A stretch of DNA of 61,887 bases from Methyloglobulus morosus KoM1 (GTDB lineage: Bacteria; Pseudomonadota; Gammaproteobacteria; Methylococcales; Methylomonadaceae), in NCBI RefSeq assembly GCF_000496735.2, contig NZ_AYLO01000025.1, forward strand, positions 1 through 61,887. The letters are read 5' to 3'. A program made the position numbers and the translations under genes. Of the stretch, positions 2,427 to 32,606 are shown in pieces. The notes beneath the pieces were generated by a model. It had not been told where the DNA came from, made no database searches, and saw only the letters and a list, made by a program, of their open reading frames with translations. Positions within the stretch are counted from its first letter, which is position 1. Each line of letters starts with the position of its first letter.

Positions 2427-3629
2427 CTAATGCTTTTCAGGCTCAGGAGCGGGTTTGGCTTCGGCATCAGCCGCTGGTTTTTCTGGTGTTCCAGCCGGTT
2501 CATGCGTTTCGGCTGGTGGAGGTGCGGATTCAGGCTGGGGAGCAGATTCTGTACCTGCTGGTATTTCAGTCGGTGGAGCTTTGGTTTGATGTTCGGCTTC
2601 CGTCGGGGTTGTCGGCTCGGGTTTAGGTCCAGTCTCCCCAACTACGGGTTTTTCAGTAGGTTTTTCTGGCGTTGTCGATGGCTCATGGGCCTTGGTTTCA
2701 GGCGCATCATGCGGGGCTGCGGCATCTGTGGGCTGGTGTTCGTCGCCGCCCTCTTTAGTTCCATGAGCGGGCGCTTCCACTGGTGCCGGTGCTTTTTCAT
2801 CTGTGGCAGCAGGCATATTTCCCGACGAAGCCTCCAGTATTTTCTTCTCTGCTTTTTTGTTCATCACTATGATGGAAATCCGCCTGTTCATCGGGTCTAG
2901 CGGATCTTTCTTGTTAAAATGAATACTGTCTGACAGGCCGGCAACTCGGATAATCTTATCCTCCCCAAGGCCGCCCTGGGTCAATACAAAGCGGGCGGCA
3001 TTCGCACGTTCGCTGGAAAGCTCCCAGTTGGTGTATTGCTTCCGGTTGCCTGAAAAGGGCTGCGAATCAGTATGCCCATTGATGGTGATCCGGTTAGGCA
3101 AGCTGTTGATGACTGGGGCAAGTGCGCTCAGGATAGTCCTGATTTGAGGTTCGGTTTCCGAACTGCCGGTTTTGAACATGGGCTTATTCTTGCTGTCAAC
3201 AATTTGTACACGCAAGCCTTCGTCCGTAATTTCAAGCTTGATTTGATCTTTGGCTTCGGACAGCTTAATGTCGTCCTTAATCATTTTTTCGATTTTTTCT
3301 TTTAGTTTTGCCAAATTTTTCTTTTCTTCTTTTTCCGCGATAAGTTCCAAATCGGTAGTGGCTTCTTTCCCTTGTATTTCAGAAAGCGAACCACTGGTTC
3401 CGGGCGGTGGCGCTGTACCTTTACTGGATTCTTCGGCTTTATAAGGGTTTTGAAAATATTCGGAAATACCTTTTTTGGTTTCTTCGGTCGTTGACCCTAA
3501 CAGCCACATCAACAGGAAAAAGGCCATCATGGCAGTGACGAAATCAGCATAAGCCAATTTCCACGCGCCGCCATGATGCTCCTGGCCTTTCTTTTTGATT
3601 ATTTTTTTGATGATGGGTTGTTCGGCCAT
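2427..3629 (-). CDS. motB: flagellar stator protein MotB
   Basis: Stator B subunit, 400 aa. A basic N-terminus is followed by one membrane helix with the proton-carrying Asp (D29 in YADFVTAMMAFF). After that come a plug/linker, a periplasmic OmpA-like peptidoglycan-binding domain (about 150-265; motifs INGHTDSQPF, NWELSSERANAARF, RRISI), and a ~130-residue tail after the OmpA fold rich in Pro, Glu, Ala and Thr. Typical MotB is ~300-310 aa, so the tail is an unusual extension. It lies 11 bp downstream of motA in the same operon. It pairs with MotA to make a proton channel; the second pair, MotCD, is at 26911-28911. Confidence 0.96.
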   Translation of the reverse strand: MAEQPIIKKIIKKKGQEHHGGAWKLAYADFVTAMMAFFLLMWLLGSTTEETKKGISEYFQNPYKAEESSKGTAPPPGTSGSLSEIQGKEATTDLELIAEKEEKKNLAKLKEKIEKMIKDDIKLSEAKDQIKLEITDEGLRVQIVDSKNKPMFKTGSSETEPQIRTILSALAPVINSLPNRITINGHTDSQPFSGNRKQYTNWELSSERANAARFVLTQGGLGEDKIIRVAGLSDSIHFNKKDPLDPMNRRISIIVMNKKAEKKILEASSGNMPAATDEKAPAPVEAPAHGTKEGGDEHQPTDAAAPHDAPETKAHEPSTTPEKPTEKPVVGETGPKPEPTTPTEAEHQTKAPPTEIPAGTESAPQPESAPPPAETHEPAGTPEKPAADAEAKPAPEPEKH

Positions 3630-3640
3630 AATGGTGTTTG

Positions 3641-4504
3641 TTAACCTTCGGCTGGTTTATTTTTGTGGGCTTTCAGCTGTTCGTCCAATTCAGCAAAAGT
3701 GGGACGCAGATTGGAAGGGATCATCGCCCGCATATATTCTGCGGTCATCGTGGGCGATATGGCATTCGCGCAGCATAACAGGCCTTTTTGGGTGCATTTA
3801 TAGGCATTTCCGAGGGCTTCTAATCGGTCTTCCATGACACTGGAGACAGGCGATATAAAGCCGTAAGCCAGCAAAATGCCCAAAAATGTCCCGACCAGCG
3901 CGGCTGCGATCAATTTGCCCAATTCGGCGGGCGGCAAACTTACCGATTCCATGGTGTGCACGACACCCAATACGGCGGCGACGATCCCAAAAGCAGGCAT
4001 ACCGTCAGCCAGGCCTTTGACAGCCTTGATCGGGCCATGACCTTCTTCGTGATGTGTTTCGAGAGCTTGGTCCATCAGGTCTTCTAATACATGCGCCTCA
4101 ATGCCGGTGACCATTAAGCGCAGGTTGTCGCGGATAAATTCCATCAGGTGATGGTCTTTCATGACTTTGGGCGAAAAAATGGTTTCGATTTCCGGGCCGT
4201 CAATGACGTCTTCCAATGACAATAAGCCCTCTTTGCGTATTTTGCTGGAAAGGGTGTTAAATGACATTAACAACTCAAGATAAAAAGCCTTGTCGCAAGG
4301 GGCGCCTTTTAATGTCCCTGTTCCTTCCTTCAGTGAGGCCTTTATGACGTGCATGGAGTTGCCACACACAAACGCTCCTAAGGCGGCGCCAATGATAATG
4401 ACAAATTCAAAGGGTTGGAACAAGACGGCCGGATGTCCGCCTCCCCCGATAAATCCGCCCATGATTGCCCCAATGATCAGCACATAGCCCACAATAACTA
4501 ACAT
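3641..4504 (-). CDS. motA: flagellar stator protein MotA
   Basis: Stator A subunit, 287 aa from the chosen start, close to the ~295 aa of E. coli MotA. It has four membrane segments, a cytoplasmic loop with RKEGLLSLED (torque-generating charged helix) and the conserved proline region PAFGIVAAVLGVVHTME. A longer frame runs to 4549. I choose ATG at 4504 because AGAGGAA lies 6-8 nt upstream and because the family begins at this hydrophobic MLVIVGYV sequence. It is the first gene of motAB. No convincing sigma-28 motif was found in the 280-bp divergent region shared with flgM. Confidence 0.96.
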   Translation of the reverse strand: MLVIVGYVLIIGAIMGGFIGGGGHPAVLFQPFEFVIIIGAALGAFVCGNSMHVIKASLKEGTGTLKGAPCDKAFYLELLMSFNTLSSKIRKEGLLSLEDVIDGPEIETIFSPKVMKDHHLMEFIRDNLRLMVTGIEAHVLEDLMDQALETHHEEGHGPIKAVKGLADGMPAFGIVAAVLGVVHTMESVSLPPAELGKLIAAALVGTFLGILLAYGFISPVSSVMEDRLEALGNAYKCTQKGLLCCANAISPTMTAEYMRAMIPSNLRPTFAELDEQLKAHKNKPAEG

Positions 4505-4724
4505 AAATTCCTCTAAAGAAACGGTTGGATACGGCACACAAATGTTCACCCGATGAAAAAATTCCAGGCCACTCTGCGTAAATATAGTAGTTCAAAAAAA
4601 TTTTGTCTTTTTTAATATGAAGAGGTAATTTCCAGGTGAAGGGTTTTTAAAGCAATTGGCACTTTATAAGATGGCGCTAATCTTTAATGCTTAAAGAAAT
4701 GCATTTTCTACTTGTGTTTTACAT

Positions 4725-15190: not shown

Positions 15191-16327
15191 CTATGCATAC
15201 AGGCTCAACAAGCCTTTTCCGACGACAACTTGGTTTAAGCTATTCATTTCCATGCCTGTAACCTCTTCACCGCCTTTTTCGTGATGTTCTGACAGGGTGC
15301 GAAACGGGTTGGGCTGTGGTCGGCCTTGGTCTGTGGTGGAGTTTTGGGAAATATTCACATTCACCAAATTGAGTTGCTGGTTGACCAGCATTTCACGTAA
15401 CTTCGGTATGGAGGCTTCGATAGCTTCCTTGACTTCCAAGTGCTGCGCCGTAAACATGATCGATGCTTGTTGGTCCTTGTTGACATCAATGCGGATGGAT
15501 ATTGGGCCAAGATGTTCCGGGTTTAGCCGGATTTCTGCGGCGGATAAGTCCTTGTTGTTCATCCAAACAATCTGTTCGCCAAGATCCTTGCCCCAATTAG
15601 GGTGCGATATCGGTCTTGCTATGGCTGCCTGGATGTCTATCTTGGCATCAATCGGCCTTTGGGCAGGGAGCATATCCGTGGTAATGCCAGGTAACGCTTT
15701 TTCCAAGCCGGAAAGGAACGATTGCTTTTCAACTGACGCGGCTTCGCTTGGGAGCTCTCCTGTTGCCAGGGACGCTAAGCCAAGTTGCCCGTCTGGATTG
15801 GACTGGCGAGGGGGGGTTGCGAATTGCAAATAGTCTCCTGGTACTGCGTCTGAAACAGGAAGGCTCAGTTTGGCTTCTTCAGGCATAGGCTTTACAAAGA
15901 CCAGTCCAGTTAACGCCAATGCACCACTCATGTCGACTGTTGGCGCAGTTGCCGCCGCCGCTTCGGGGGCAATAGTGGGCGTATGGGTTGTGGGTATGTC
16001 GGTTAATGTTGGCAAAGCCGCTGCTGCGTCAGCAGACGCACTGTCTGCAAACGGTTCAGGCAAATATTTTTCGAACAAAGCGATCAGGTCTTTTTGGTCA
16101 GCCGTGCTTTTTTGCAAATCGTTAGTTTCGGGCAGGCTTTCAACGACCTCTTGCTGCACAGGCAATTCGGCTTGTTCCTTGGTTTTGTCCAATAACTTTT
16201 TCTGTCCTTTTAAGGCCATTGCGAAATTATCCGGTGAAGAACCATTCTCAGGCAAAACCTGAGAATCACCCTCAATGGGGCTTTTGCTTGGCAACATTGA
16301 TATTGAACTTACGCTTTCAACATTCAT
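15191..16327 (-). CDS. fliK: flagellar hook-length control protein FliK
   Basis: 378 aa. The N-terminal two-thirds is disordered, rich in Ala, Pro and Thr. The C-terminal FliK domain (about 240-345) has the characteristic block LSAAEIRLNPEHLGPISIRI, then AQHLEVKEAIEASIPKLREML. FliK is a secreted ruler that stops hook growth and switches export specificity through FlhB (20392). It is monocistronic on the minus strand, divergent from fliM. Confidence 0.93.
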   Translation of the reverse strand: MNVESVSSISMLPSKSPIEGDSQVLPENGSSPDNFAMALKGQKKLLDKTKEQAELPVQQEVVESLPETNDLQKSTADQKDLIALFEKYLPEPFADSASADAAAALPTLTDIPTTHTPTIAPEAAAATAPTVDMSGALALTGLVFVKPMPEEAKLSLPVSDAVPGDYLQFATPPRQSNPDGQLGLASLATGELPSEAASVEKQSFLSGLEKALPGITTDMLPAQRPIDAKIDIQAAIARPISHPNWGKDLGEQIVWMNNKDLSAAEIRLNPEHLGPISIRIDVNKDQQASIMFTAQHLEVKEAIEASIPKLREMLVNQQLNLVNVNISQNSTTDQGRPQPNPFRTLSEHHEKGGEEVTGMEMNSLNQVVVGKGLLSLYA

Positions 16328-16693
16328 AATAAATTCTCTTTTCTGCCTGGCTTGACTTAGGATATATTCTTGGTTGAGAGAATATCGTTGTTTTTGGGGA
16401 AAAACATAGGCATCAGCCCATATTTTCCTAATTGAAATAACATTAGCACGCTTATCGATATATTTCGCCCCGTTCTTTTTGATTTTATGCGCGAGTTCAC
16501 AGTTTTTGTTTATTGAAGGACAATAGCCGTAAGACAGGAAGATTTTGCCAATGGCAAATAATAGGGTTATTAGCTCTTGTGTAAAATTATAGTGTCCATT
16601 GTTGGATAAAGGAGCTATCCTTTTGAGAAAATAACGAGTAAAAACGATGTCGAAGGACTATTCTTTATTTATTTGTGACCCACAACTTAAGAT
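16328..16693. other. divergent region fliK / fliM
   Basis: 366 bp between the divergent fliK and fliM starts, AT-rich. It must hold promoters for fliK and for the fliM-to-fliA operon. I looked for GG-N10-GC (-24/-12) motifs on both strands and found no convincing match. No fliL gene, which normally precedes fliM, is present. Confidence 0.45.
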
Positions 16694-26910: not shown

Positions 26911-27666
26911 ATGGATATTTTAAGCATCTCAGGCATTCTGTTGAGTGTCGGTGCCCTCTTGGTTGGAAACCTGTTGGACGGTGGCGATATTGGCTCATTG
27001 CTTAACGGGCCTGCGTTTATTATTGTGTTGGGGGGGACATTGGGGGCAACATTATTGCAATATCCGCCAATGACCTTTGTCAGAAGCCTAGAAATGTCTT
27101 TATGGGTATTTAAGCCGCTAAAATTTAATCTTGAGGCACAAATTACGCAAATCGTCAATTGGAGCCTTCATGCTCGCAGGAAAGGCTTATTAGGGCTAGA
27201 GAACCTGATCGACAGGGAAAAAGACCCCTTTGTAAAGAAAGGGTTGCAGCTTTTGGTCGATGGTAACGAAGCGGACATCATAATCGACATCATGGAACTG
27301 GACATAAATATTCAGGAGAACAGGGATTACCAAGCGGCCCGATTATTCGAGGCAATGGGCGGGTATGCCCCTACCGTCGGTATTCTCGGTGCCGTTATGG
27401 GCTTGATCCATGTCATGGAAAACCTAAGCGATCCAGGCCTTCTAGGAAAAGGCATCGCCACGGCGTTTGTGGCAACCATCTACGGAGTGGCTTCTGCCAA
27501 CCTATTTTTTTTGCCCATCGCCAATAAATTAAAAGCCCATATTTTTGCCTCTAACCAAGCCAAAGAAATGGTCGTTTTAGGTATTGCCGCCATCGCCAGA
27601 AATGAAAACCCAAAAAACATCGAGTTAAAATTGAAAAGCTACCTACAAAAAAACAAAACGAAATAA
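26911..27666 (+). CDS. motC: second stator A subunit MotC
   Basis: 251 aa MotA/PomA-type protein with four membrane segments and the block MGGYAPTVGILGAVMGLIHVMENLSDPGLLGKGIATAFVATIYG. The cytoplasmic loop keeps ARRKGLLGLE. It clearly differs from MotA at 3641. As in pseudomonads, the MotCD pair lies downstream of fliA and near chemotaxis genes. By family knowledge it supports motility under high load or in swarming. Confidence 0.94.
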   Translation: MDILSISGILLSVGALLVGNLLDGGDIGSLLNGPAFIIVLGGTLGATLLQYPPMTFVRSLEMSLWVFKPLKFNLEAQITQIVNWSLHARRKGLLGLENLIDREKDPFVKKGLQLLVDGNEADIIIDIMELDINIQENRDYQAARLFEAMGGYAPTVGILGAVMGLIHVMENLSDPGLLGKGIATAFVATIYGVASANLFFLPIANKLKAHIFASNQAKEMVVLGIAAIARNENPKNIELKLKSYLQKNKTK

Positions 27667-27669
27667 GCG

Positions 27670-28911
27670 ATGGCGAGGCATATAAGGCAGAGAAGAAAAG
27701 TCATGGTCGATACCAATAACCATGACCGTTGGATAATATCCTATGCTGACTTTATAACCCTGTTGTTTGCGTTTTTTGTCGTCATGTATTCAATTTCATC
27801 GGTCAACCAAGGCAAGTACAAAAACCTGAGCGAATCGTTAGGCACCGCTTTTTCAAACAAAGAAAAACCGAAAGCGGAAAAAATAATTCACCCTGCCCAG
27901 GTCAAAAATAGCCAAGTTGACACTACCTCTTATGACATTGCCCAAGCCGCTTTTTTAGACATTCTTAACCTACCTTTTGAATCACTCGAATTAACCAAAC
28001 AGGCGGAGGTAGGGCCTACGGAAAAATGGGTATCAACTGCGGCTATTTTAAATGGGCAAGCATCTTCCCCGCCTTTGATTGACCTGTCCCCTAAGCTCGA
28101 CCAGCTAACTCCGTCCGTTATTCTTGCTCCGCCTTTTGAATCCGTTGCATGGGATCATCAGGCAGGGACGGCAGCAGAAGATAAACAGGCAGTGGACAAA
28201 GCCGCTTTACCCCCTGACACCGTTCAGCTTGAGCCATCCGCCAATATTGACCAGTCAACCCTGCTCGACATCCTTGACGTGCCTTTTGAATCCATGAAAT
28301 TCGATAAGCAGACGACGGCGGAAATTGAAAAAACCAGGGAGTTGAGTGAAGAATTATTGAAAGAGAGAAGGCAATTGAACCAAGTGTCCGATCAGTTAGA
28401 AACCGCACTGGAGGCTTTTATTGATGATAAACTGGTTTCTGTCAAACGCAATGATTACTGGATAGAACTGGAAATGAATAGCGAACTGTTATTCTTAAGC
28501 GGCGAGGCCGCATTGTCCCCTAAAGCCCCGCCCGCACTAAAAAAGATTGCCGAAGTGGTCAATACGCTCCCCAATGCGATTAATGTTGAAGGCCATACGG
28601 ACAATATCCCTATAGGCACGCTGATATTTCCGTCTAACTGGGAGTTGTCGTCCGCTAGGGCGACCAGCGTTGTTCAGGAACTGATCAAGGAGGGTATTAA
28701 TCCAATACGCTTGTCTGCGGTGGGTTACGGTGAGTTCCATCCCATTGGCGACAACACGACTGAAGAAGGCCGCTTTAAAAACAGGCGCGTTACCTTGGTT
28801 TTGATGTCGCAGGCTTTTTCCCGTTATGGCGCAAACGACGAAGAACGCGCAAAATTATTAAATTTGGAGCCGACGACCCATGTCGATCATTCTCCTGATA
28901 GTAAACCCTGA
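27670..28911 (+). CDS. motD: second stator B subunit MotD with repeat-containing linker
   Basis: 413 aa. One membrane helix carries the ion-binding Asp (D27 in SYADFITLLFAFFVVMY). A C-terminal OmpA-like peptidoglycan-binding domain (about 275-395) has VEGHTDNIPIG, NWELSSARATSVV and RRVTLVLM. Between them is a linker of about 200 residues with three copies of a 16-residue motif, L(D)IL-x-xPFES-x-x-x-D-x-Q, at 96-111, 149-164 and 199-214. MotD is usually ~300 aa, so this linker is an expansion. It starts 3 bp after motC. Confidence 0.94.
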   Translation: MARHIRQRRKVMVDTNNHDRWIISYADFITLLFAFFVVMYSISSVNQGKYKNLSESLGTAFSNKEKPKAEKIIHPAQVKNSQVDTTSYDIAQAAFLDILNLPFESLELTKQAEVGPTEKWVSTAAILNGQASSPPLIDLSPKLDQLTPSVILAPPFESVAWDHQAGTAAEDKQAVDKAALPPDTVQLEPSANIDQSTLLDILDVPFESMKFDKQTTAEIEKTRELSEELLKERRQLNQVSDQLETALEAFIDDKLVSVKRNDYWIELEMNSELLFLSGEAALSPKAPPALKKIAEVVNTLPNAINVEGHTDNIPIGTLIFPSNWELSSARATSVVQELIKEGINPIRLSAVGYGEFHPIGDNTTEEGRFKNRRVTLVLMSQAFSRYGANDEERAKLLNLEPTTHVDHSPDSKP

Positions 28912-29646: not shown

Positions 29647-31383
29647 TCAGACTGAGTCATCAAAGTTAAGTATTGGCCTGAACTCGTTGTATTTCGTTAG
29701 ATCCAGAATCTTTTCGGTATCCAATTCAATTACGAATGCTAACTTTTTGTAAGCATCAATTTCCTTTCGGTTCATCGCGCACAAAATAAGCTGAGAGTCG
29801 GAAGGTATTGTATTCATGAGAAATTGAAGAATTTTTTCGTAGTTAAAGTCTGCTTGTTCCTGCTGATTTGGCGTATCGATTATCACAGCTGAAAAAACTT
29901 CGTTCTTTGCAGCATGAATTTGGAGAAGAACTGCCATGTAATAAGCCAATATGCCCCGTGTGCTTTCAGCAGCTCCACCACTGCCATAAAGTTTTTTGTA
30001 ATCTAGCGATGACTCAATGGGCGATAGATTTACCCCTTTCGCTTTCAAGTCATTGATATATTTTGCCAAATTGTCCTTGAAGGCAGCGTCCATGTCTTCT
30101 CGCTCTTTTTTGGTCAGTAACTTTTTTTGATCGTCTCTCAACGCACTATTTGTACGGTTGATATTGCGAATAAGAGCCGTCTTAGTCTCCATTGTCCGTT
30201 GCACATGCTTTTGAACAGAGCGGGATGCAAGACCATCCAAAAATGAGAGCGTATCATTTTTGGGTTCTGCCTCTACTTCGGAGGAAATTTCATCCCGCTT
30301 GTATTTGCTGTTGATGGTGTCAATTTCAGAGCGTATCGCTGTCAAGCGCTCCTGGCTCTGGATATATTTCTTTTCTAGCCCGGATGTCTTCGTTGAGAGC
30401 ATTTGCACTTGATTGTCTGCCTCATCCTTGTCGGCAAGGATAGAGGCTCTGTTAGGAGAGGAGTTGTCGTGAACCGTCCCGCACAGAGGACAAACAAGTA
30501 TTTCACCGACTACGCACTCCACTGAGAATGAGTAGTCCTTTTCGAGTTCGGCAGAGGCTAGTTTTGCAAGATCAAGTTGTCCCTGGAGATAGATCCGCTC
30601 AGTTTGAATTTCAGCGATCGTCCTCAACAGTTCTTCTTGCTTAGATTGTAGCTTCGATATGTCGATATTGACTTCAGCAGAGAGCACATCAAACTCGCTG
30701 CTTGTTAGTGCGACAGTTTTCTCGTTCGTCGGAATATAAGCTTTGACTACCTCGATGGCAGTTTCAATCTTCTTAACCTCAGCCTCTGCAGTTTTTTTCT
30801 CAAGGGTGCTTTGAGCAATCTTTTCCTCGATAGAAAAGAACTCAGGCAGCAGATAACCGGTGTGGTACCGAATAATGGTTTTCTGCCATCTTGCGTATTG
30901 TTCAAGATTGGGGAAACTGTTCCAGGCCTGCGACCAACTACGCTGCTGATCTACGTAAAAAGGAAGAAAATAGTAGGCAGGAGGCGGGGTTTCTAATTTG
31001 GTGACGTCTTTTCTGTTTGGTAATAGCGCACCAAATTCTGCAATTTCAGCAAAAGCCCTGGAATATTCCCCAGTTATTTTTTGAAATCTTTCCCAGTCAC
31101 CATCAGGGCGTCTGAGAAACATCATATTGCCATACCTGCCAACTTGGTATACAGCATTTCCGATGCTGAAATCAACTAAGGTACGAATATTGAAAGACTG
31201 CCAAGTAAAATCAAGGCTAGGGTCGCCGCCTAGAGTCCAGAACAATAGTTTAGCAAGTGTCGACTTACCAATACTATTGTCGTTCCCTGTTATTAAATTG
31301 AATCGTGGTTTGAAGTTGTATTGATTTGCCGACTTTAGTGTATCGGACGCTATCGTTAGACGTTTGAATACTAAGTTTGGCAT
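29647..31383 (-). CDS. SMC/Rad50-like ABC ATPase of putative defence module (LmuB-like)
   Basis: 578 aa. N-terminal Walker A, TGNDNSIGKST (32-42), follows an SMC-type first strand. Coiled coils flank a CPLC pair near the middle (298-301), like a short zinc hook. A C-terminal ABC signature-like SGGAAEST (468-475) precedes Walker B with IIDTPNQQEQ (501-510). The D-T-P after the Walker B Asp, rather than D-E, recalls DUF3732 (Lamassu LmuB) and ABC-3C ATPases. It is 53 bp downstream of the nuclease gene, with AAGGA before its ATG. Inferred role: sensing of foreign or damaged DNA ends and activation of the partner nuclease. Confidence 0.72.
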   Translation of the reverse strand: MPNLVFKRLTIASDTLKSANQYNFKPRFNLITGNDNSIGKSTLAKLLFWTLGGDPSLDFTWQSFNIRTLVDFSIGNAVYQVGRYGNMMFLRRPDGDWERFQKITGEYSRAFAEIAEFGALLPNRKDVTKLETPPPAYYFLPFYVDQQRSWSQAWNSFPNLEQYARWQKTIIRYHTGYLLPEFFSIEEKIAQSTLEKKTAEAEVKKIETAIEVVKAYIPTNEKTVALTSSEFDVLSAEVNIDISKLQSKQEELLRTIAEIQTERIYLQGQLDLAKLASAELEKDYSFSVECVVGEILVCPLCGTVHDNSSPNRASILADKDEADNQVQMLSTKTSGLEKKYIQSQERLTAIRSEIDTINSKYKRDEISSEVEAEPKNDTLSFLDGLASRSVQKHVQRTMETKTALIRNINRTNSALRDDQKKLLTKKEREDMDAAFKDNLAKYINDLKAKGVNLSPIESSLDYKKLYGSGGAAESTRGILAYYMAVLLQIHAAKNEVFSAVIIDTPNQQEQADFNYEKILQFLMNTIPSDSQLILCAMNRKEIDAYKKLAFVIELDTEKILDLTKYNEFRPILNFDDSV

Positions 31384-31436
31384 GCTGCTTGGTCCTTAGA
31401 TTTCTTATTAGCAGTTTGTATTGATCAATAGTTGAT

Positions 31437-32606
31437 TTATTTTTCATGGCACTTGGAAATTAACTCGTAAATAATTGCGGCTTGTGCTGATTCCAAGTCA
31501 ATGAAGTTTTTCTTCATGTTTTCAGGTAGCGCTTCCAGTGCCGTCTCAATCAGGGATACAGCACCGTGTTCATGAAACACGGAAAAATTATTCTCAACAG
31601 CCATTTTTACTGCTTGCTGGTGGTCGATGGCGATTAGTGAGCGCTCCAGGCGAACTGCATTGTGGTATCGCTCAAACGCTCTCCTTAGGCCAACTTTCTT
31701 ATTGAACTTCAGACCCATTTCTTCAGTAATACTGTTGAAATCAGAACTGAAGCTGTCGATACCCTTGTTTTCCGTATAGGCAGAAATTACCTGCTCCACA
31801 TCTTTATATGTCATTCCCTTATTTTTCACAAGGTTGCTCCACTGGGTATAATCAAACGCCACACTCCCCTTGCGATGGAGATCATCTATCAGAACCCGAT
31901 AAATGGATTGTGCGCTGCACTTTGCTCCCGGCGCTGAGAGTTCGACGAGTTTTGATATGCGTCCAATGGCGGCATCCTGAAACCCTGTGCTGGGCAAGTC
32001 TGGGACGATGAATCTTAATGTCTTTGGCAGTGGGTAGAGCCCAATCTCTTTGTCGATTGCTGATTGAATATCATTTATACATTCATCGTGGATTTCACCA
32101 ATGGAAATTATTGAAAGCTTTAAACCTTCTGTTTTAGGCGGTAGGTTGAATCCACATGTGGCGACAAGATTTATTGCGTTGAGTTTATCAATAAACGGCT
32201 TGTTGCGAACACCCAGCAGCATTTTCCCAAGGATCGAATTCTTTTCTTTTTTTGCGCTTCCCTTCGGCCTTAAAGTCAGTTTCTTCGAATTCCAAGGCGA
32301 CTCGCTGACGTTCTTTACTTGGTTGAACTCGAATTCGGCGAGGGTTACGTCAGACGAGGTTGCCAAGACGACATCTTCGTGAAGTTCAATAAACACCACA
32401 TAGTCATTCGAAAGTTCATGAGCACCAAGAATCCGGCATAGCGCCCAATGGTACTGGTACTCGTACTTTTCGAATGTCTTTGCACCAACTGTCTCGCGTT
32501 GCGGTGAAGCCAGCGGATTGCTTTGGGAAGTGTAATGCGCTGCGTTCAATATTGCCTCCTCCAAGAGTTCGATGTCATTATTGCCGCCTACTGGTAGTAG
32601 AGTCAA
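31437..32606 (-). CDS. DUF4297/Cap4-like PD-(D/E)xK nuclease (LmuA-like effector)
   Basis: 389 aa. The N-terminal region fits the DUF4297/Cap4 dsDNA-nuclease pattern. It has ETVGAKTFEKYEYQYHWAL, then FIELHEDVV (E74, E77, D78), then a strand ending EFNQVK (Q96, K98), the usual E...D...QxK active-site layout. The C-terminal half is helical and not recognised; in such effectors it is a sensor or partner-binding region. The start is TTG with AAGGA about 10 nt upstream. No ATG lies in frame before the upstream stop. It is the first gene of a two-gene operon with the ATPase. An ABC-3C effector is the alternative to Lamassu-type. Confidence 0.7.
   Translation of the reverse strand: MTLLPVGGNNDIELLEEAILNAAHYTSQSNPLASPQRETVGAKTFEKYEYQYHWALCRILGAHELSNDYVVFIELHEDVVLATSSDVTLAEFEFNQVKNVSESPWNSKKLTLRPKGSAKKEKNSILGKMLLGVRNKPFIDKLNAINLVATCGFNLPPKTEGLKLSIISIGEIHDECINDIQSAIDKEIGLYPLPKTLRFIVPDLPSTGFQDAAIGRISKLVELSAPGAKCSAQSIYRVLIDDLHRKGSVAFDYTQWSNLVKNKGMTYKDVEQVISAYTENKGIDSFSSDFNSITEEMGLKFNKKVGLRRAFERYHNAVRLERSLIAIDHQQAVKMAVENNFSVFHEHGAVSLIETALEALPENMKKNFIDLESAQAAIIYELISKCHEK

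Follow-up and report, generated by a model that had tools for sequence, protein, structure and literature searches.

In Borrelia, the MotB linker threads a ring of FliL (PMC9195833), and in Campylobacter an arc of FliL partly encircles it (PMC11482838, PMC12222027). The MotB linkers of Helicobacter, Campylobacter, Borrelia and E. coli are flexible segments between the plug and the peptidoglycan (PG)-binding domain, as is the linker of the MotD described here; the motors of all four have FliL, and the accessible portions of the sources on them describe no linker repeat of the kind reported below. The plug and linker are reported to regulate ion conductance (PMC9093738), and the combined length of plug and linker has been considered a flagellar stator trait (PMC12505986). 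E. coli MotB tolerates GFP or iLOV insertions close to its plug, motility being retained (PMC12434310). A review states that FliL is made by all flagellated bacteria, and poses as a key question by what means the flexible MotB linkers bear torque and in what way the FliL ring around them contributes (PMC9195833). Elsewhere FliL is argued to be non-essential for motility, H. pylori included (PMC10127578), in disagreement with PMC12222027 on that species. In the available text of PMC7990780 the linker appears only in the reference list, and that of PMC12199754 makes no mention of FliL. At the level of titles and the opening lines of abstracts, the literature yielded neither a MotD linker repeat nor a FliL-less methanotroph, although such reports may still exist.

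The window, that is, the whole stretch of 61,887 nucleotides analysed here, comes from the Methyloglobulus morosus KoM1 genome, an assembly of 4,136,943 bases that is 99.97% complete. It carries a motC-motD pair with the following features.

26911..27666, + strand: motC, the partner stator A subunit (MotA_ExbB; Pfam, E 2.1e-31)
27670..28911, + strand, stop codon within the coordinates: motD, flagellar stator B subunit, 413 aa (Pfam domains)
27709..27852, + strand: MotB_plug region, residues 14-61 (Pfam PF13677, E 1.8e-20, 72.7 bits against a cut-off of 24; helix at 16-61 in the AF2 model)
27853..28314, + strand: long periplasmic linker, residues 62-215, probably disordered (low pLDDT; length comparison)
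28489..28785, + strand: OmpA-like PG-binding domain, residues 274-372 (Pfam PF00691, E 2.9e-18, 66.4 bits against a cut-off of 27.2)

The marks of a MotD/MotB B subunit, namely the plug helix, the OmpA-like domain and the adjoining A-subunit gene, are all present, and MotB and PomB chains are among the best solved-structure matches of the PG-binding domain; the protein is the predicted stator B subunit of a MotCD pair. Pfam places genes for FHIPEP, SRP54-type GTPase, ParA-like ATPase and sigma-70 proteins 5' of the pair, presumably flhA, flhF, fleN and fliA, and a gene for a DUF2802 protein lies downstream of motD.

Three copies of a 16-residue repeat lie in the linker.

27955..28002, + strand: repeat copy 1, residues 96-111, LDILNLPFESLELTKQ (repeat finder, shuffles, codons)
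28114..28161, + strand: repeat copy 2, residues 149-164, SVILAPPFESVAWDHQ (repeat finder, shuffles, codons)
28264..28311, + strand: repeat copy 3, residues 199-214, LDILDVPFESMKFDKQ (repeat finder, shuffles, profile)

All three share the IL-x-x-PFES pattern given in an earlier note on this DNA, as ILNLPFES, ILAPPFES and ILDVPFES, with PFES starting at residues 102, 155 and 205 (nt 27973, 28132 and 28282), and each ends in Q (residues 111, 164 and 214). Copy 3 is directly N-terminal of TTAEIEKTRELSEE, the site of the last unit in short-linker relatives. Significance was assessed on a 161-aa stretch, residues 62-222, by comparing ungapped 16-residue windows with those of shuffled sequences. The best pair scores 54, which 0 of 1000 shuffles reach (mean 22.7, maximum 42), and the best triple scores 111, which 0 of 300 reach (mean 42.3, maximum 81); that triple is the same three copies, starting one residue later (97, 150 and 200). 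A DNA repeat finder returns the same three sites at 27961, 28120 and 28270, 23 nt each, copies 2 and 3 being 78% and 83% identical to copy 1. The spacing of 159 and 150 nt agrees with the pitch of about 50 residues described in the earlier note, and the positions of the three repeats are borne out by both methods. The repeats are confirmed to be beyond chance.

The linker is also long. With the MotD of Methylobacter sp. KS41 (L040) as query, 111 of 237 family genomes have a MotD at E up to 1e-60; 95 loci gave a MotD by sequence pattern, those off the pattern being dropped, and 59 of these are distinct. Linker length, counted as amino acids between a fixed plug mark and a PG-domain mark, is 190 in the window protein (L001, genome G000) and 63-182 in the other 58 distinct MotDs. 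The next longest are L037 (Methylococcaceae bacterium isolate fen_1218; 182 aa) and L038 (Methyloglobulus sp. isolate WB-IL-21; 181 aa), which probably correspond to genomes G061 and G063, followed by L040 with 115 aa, then L041, L047 and L062 with 93 aa each, and the remaining 52 with 63-87 aa. The genus, probably Methyloglobulus, is represented by eight genomes, three with a full MotD, and the long linker is found in all three. The 56 distinct MotDs outside the genus have linkers of 63-115 aa, so that the linker is, as had been claimed, much longer than usual for MotD. Family MotDs have the same plug, linker and OmpA-like domain as the window protein, and 36 of 40 rows have a matching linker unit; the window protein differs from those outside the genus in its linker length, its three PFES copies and its setting in a genome without FliL. 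The change is a real lengthening of a known linker, seen in every MotD-bearing genome of the genus, three in all, and its possible tie to the loss of FliL is unexpected.

In an AF2 model of the window MotD (24 sequences), the plug is helical and the PG-binding domain is predicted with confidence, and pLDDT falls below 50 over residues 65-195, 197-200 and 202-210. The model of a short-linker relative, built from 39 sequences, likewise stays below 50 over residues 60-82. The MotD linker is therefore probably disordered, low pLDDT being no proof of it. The earlier suggestion that the repeats set the reach of the stator stands in part, in that a longer reach would fit a long, probably disordered linker.

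A likely source of the repeats can be found in the short linkers. A segment like TIQPIPLENPTT precedes EKRRELSEE in most short-linker relatives, and 36 of the 40 related MotDs from outside the genus carry such an older linker unit. A profile was trained on those 36 rows; L030, L031, L041 and L047 gave no unit by pattern, and 16 Sedimenticola-type rows were left out. The training rows include the nearest outgroups, L008 and L040, which cluster with the genus (support 99/92) and carry TFKPILLGNQTPAE and TFKPIPVDNPAPAV; L040 was trained with another unit, AVKPLPLDKQAAEE. On the sister protein L037, the three copies are ranks 1-3 of the profile, with 0 of 1000 shuffles at each rank, and on L038 copies 2 and 3 are ranks 1-2, with 16 and 36 of 1000 rank-matched shuffles. 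On the window protein the signal is weak: copy 3 comes first with a score of 3.2, which 79 of 1000 shuffles reach, copy 1 second with -2.4 (155 of 1000 at its rank), and the segment at rank 3 covers part of copy 2 in a shifted register (505 of 1000).

Codons run TTT AAA CCT in two L040 units, TTT AAG CCC in L008, TTT AAA TCT in copy 3 of L037 and TTT GAA TCx in the PFES copies, and would fit a stepwise change from TFKP through PFKS to PFES. Given the profile ranks and these codon steps, copy 3 would occupy the original position of the unit, with copies 1 and 2 most simply explained as duplicates. A further NPFTS between copies 1 and 2 of L037 is perhaps a worn unit. Taken together, the repeats look like diverged copies of an older MotD linker segment, a reading that is well supported for the genus and weaker from the window protein alone. 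Shared codons were considered as proof of recent duplication and set aside, given that the shared core is only mildly unusual against codon usage in nine window genes (CCT 0.30, TTT 0.70, GAA 0.71).

The refuting condition set in the earlier note, a lack of conservation at the PFES positions of orthologues, does not hold within the genus. In the order L001, L037, L038, copy 1 reads PFES, PFES, AFET, copy 2 reads PFES, SFES, TFES, and copy 3 reads PFES, PFKS, PFES, such that F is invariant at all three unit positions and E is found in 8 of 9. Units are 53% identical and spacers 31%, a difference matched by about 10% of circular shifts, and conservation specific to the units is therefore only suggestive. 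As for variation in copy number, the three sites are constant in the genus, and the relative L040 has a different array of about five units. That protein, from genome G096, belongs to the same FliL-less clade, and its linker has likewise been lengthened by units that resemble the older one; it differs from the window protein in having about five units of the TFKPIPVDNPA kind, a linker of 115 aa and no PFES at a 50-residue pitch. Its five units, of 12-15 residues, occupy residues 78-140 (MTFKPVQLDDRA, VTFKPIPVDNPA and similar sequences).

FliL was sought as PF03748, with a cut-off of 24.6 bits and a family-wide threshold of E up to 1e-6. It is found in 138 of 237 family genomes and in 103 of the 111 that bear MotD, including G092, G010 and G142. 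The eight MotD genomes without it are G000 (99.97% complete), G061 (79%), G063 (90%), G036 (97%), G096 (100%), G100 (96%), G118 (90%) and G089, which is a 70%-complete MAG outside the clade. At E up to 10, the window genome gives one PF03748 match, of 15.6 bits in a 550-aa frame and below the cut-off, G036 gives only 12.5 bits in a 543-aa frame, also below it, and G061, G063 and G096 give none. The lack of FliL in G061 means little alone, because that genome is 79% complete. The seven FliL-less MotDs (L001, L037, L038, L008, L040, L041 and L047, some of them assigned to their genomes from frame length and position on the contig) group in a single clade of the tree, with support of 81/77, and the absence is most plainly placed on it as one loss. 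Many FliL-bearing relatives have two FliL matches; G092, G010 and G142 have one near motD and the other elsewhere, and the seven clade genomes have neither. A search with PF18393 (MotY) gave no match in any control genome and is thus uninformative.

Gene order, with fliM, fliK and FliL named by Pfam, was compared at the place that fliL takes in two relatives, L184 and L185, where FliL adjoins fliM directly upstream.

16328..16693, strand not assigned: stretch between fliK and fliM, the fliL place in two relatives (no ORF above 47 aa)

In the four of seven clade genomes checked in this way (the window, G096, G100 and G036) there is no fliL before fliM, and the fliL place looks rearranged in the FliL-less clade. 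The fliK gene is on the opposite strand to fliM in the window (15191-16693), in G100 (L183) and in G036 (L191), and cheR stands before fliM in G096 (L182). Between fliM and fliK of G036, at the site expected for fliL, there is an OrfB_IS605-type transposase gene (PF01385, E 2.7e-28; L191, 5917-7224). The statement that all flagellated bacteria make FliL would have an exception in a clade that carries flagellar genes and lengthened tethers but no FliL.

Linker length appears to change more freely in this clade. Contrasts of log linker length have a mean square of 0.96 and a median of 0.025 inside it (n=6), against 0.031 and 0.0013 outside (n=46), and 1.7% of random draws reach the in-clade mean square, which is driven mainly by two contrasts, ranks 1 and 3 of 52. 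Grouped by clade, the distinct rows outside have linkers of 63-93 aa, the longest being L062 at 93 aa, and within the FliL-less clade the linker of L008 measures only 79 aa.

The comparison was widened to a draw of 369 genomes from the class, using plug-to-PG distance, a measure that spans 157-284 in the 59 distinct rows. Of the 369, 173 match MotD/MotB at E up to 1e-25, 11 of them without FliL, and 110 do so at E up to 1e-45, six of them without FliL, the window genome included. Distances cover the five other strong-match FliL-less genomes; the five with weaker matches are G265, G277, G418, G500 and G525. In an unrelated FliL-less family, f108, they are 155 (G556) and 141 (G458), both genomes being 98% complete, and in G556 fliM follows fliK without an intervening fliL. 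The others are 160 in G269 (86% complete), 148 in G315 (81%) and, on the long side, 182 in G539 (97%), whose contig ends before fliM. FliL loss as the sole cause of long linkers is weakened by the short distances in f108, and as a cause it is unproven, since there is a single loss on the tree and f108 has short linkers without FliL. The f108 distances and the 79-aa linker of L008 therefore suggest that FliL loss may permit long linkers rather than force them; it may have relaxed a limit on linker length. A ready set for comparison is at hand: relatives that combine FliL with short linkers, those that lack it and have long ones, and an unrelated family in which FliL is absent and linkers are short.

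The reading that accounts best for these results, with a probability of roughly 60%, is that a disordered tether was lengthened by duplication of an older segment and that the loss of FliL probably relaxed the limit on its length. A short, extended segment between the plug and the PG-binding domain would have been duplicated in the MotD linker, stretching a tether that is presumably disordered in the cell from about 70 to 190 residues. The lengthening would have taken place in a clade without FliL, whose ring or arc surrounds the linker in other motors, and with that neighbour gone the linker would act simply as a longer tether. This is supported by the repeats beyond chance, the profile ranks of L037 and L038, the codons and the L040 units, as well as by linker pLDDT below 50, the FliL pattern in 111 genomes, the gene order before fliM, the place of FliL around the linker in Borrelia and Campylobacter, and the contrasts. 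It is weakened by the weak profile on the window protein, the clade support of 81/77, the single loss, f108, L008, the 93 aa of L062 outside the clade, the weight of two contrasts in the rate comparison and the only suggestive conservation of the units.

It is possible, if somewhat doubtful, that the linker has only drifted, gaining and losing units without effect, and that the tie to FliL is accidental. The insertions tolerated near the E. coli MotB plug (PMC12434310), the spread of 63-93 aa outside the FliL-less clade, and the single loss with its counter-example in f108 would all fit neutral drift. However, length changes about 30 times faster in the clade by mean squared contrast, albeit mainly through two contrasts, and the F and E of the units persist while the spacers diverge, which is suggestive only. 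Binding sites are an unlikely account, in which F-[EK]-[SP] units would dock as extended strands on a periplasmic partner, be it the T ring, the P ring or another motor protein, and the copies would raise avidity and replace the FliL ring as a second anchor of the stator. F invariant at three positions in three species with E in 8 of 9, an alternating pattern similar in the older unit and in PFES, and a clade that lacks the very protein found around the linker elsewhere are consistent with docking. Yet no partner is known, the units are not significantly above the spacers (about 10% of shifts), L008 lacks FliL with a linker of 79 aa, and the FliL-less f108 linkers are short; binding cannot be addressed by an AF2 monomer model. 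It is quite improbable that in this clade of methane-oxidising bacteria the repeat array does the work of the FliL ring, copies of the old motif anchoring or bracing the stator tether in the periplasm and the linker then evolving fast into differing arrays in different lineages.

An origin of the repeats in a dispersed DNA element that inserts in genes is scarcely credible, and was rejected for the window genome as assembled, which has no further copies elsewhere: although the CCT TTT GAA TC core is identical in all three copies, the exact pattern occurs in that genome only at these three sites, up to 3 mismatches give 17 matches in forward and 9 in reverse orientation, a control giving 12 and 14, and a protein-level search of the genome for the copy-3 segment (E up to 10) returns MotD alone, at copies 3 and 1.

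Two other loci of the window can be described in their own right. A second stator pair (MotA-like and MotB-like) is found at 2427-4549 of the window on the minus strand; its 400-aa MotB has a long P/E/A/T-rich tail beyond the OmpA domain, and its translation is without PFES. A Lamassu-type defence pair, at 29647-32606 on the minus strand, lies 3' of motC-motD-DUF2802, and consists of an LmuB-like ATPase (E 4.5e-245) and an LmuA-like protein with a Cap4 nuclease domain (E 7.6e-155), placed between the flagellar and chemotaxis genes.
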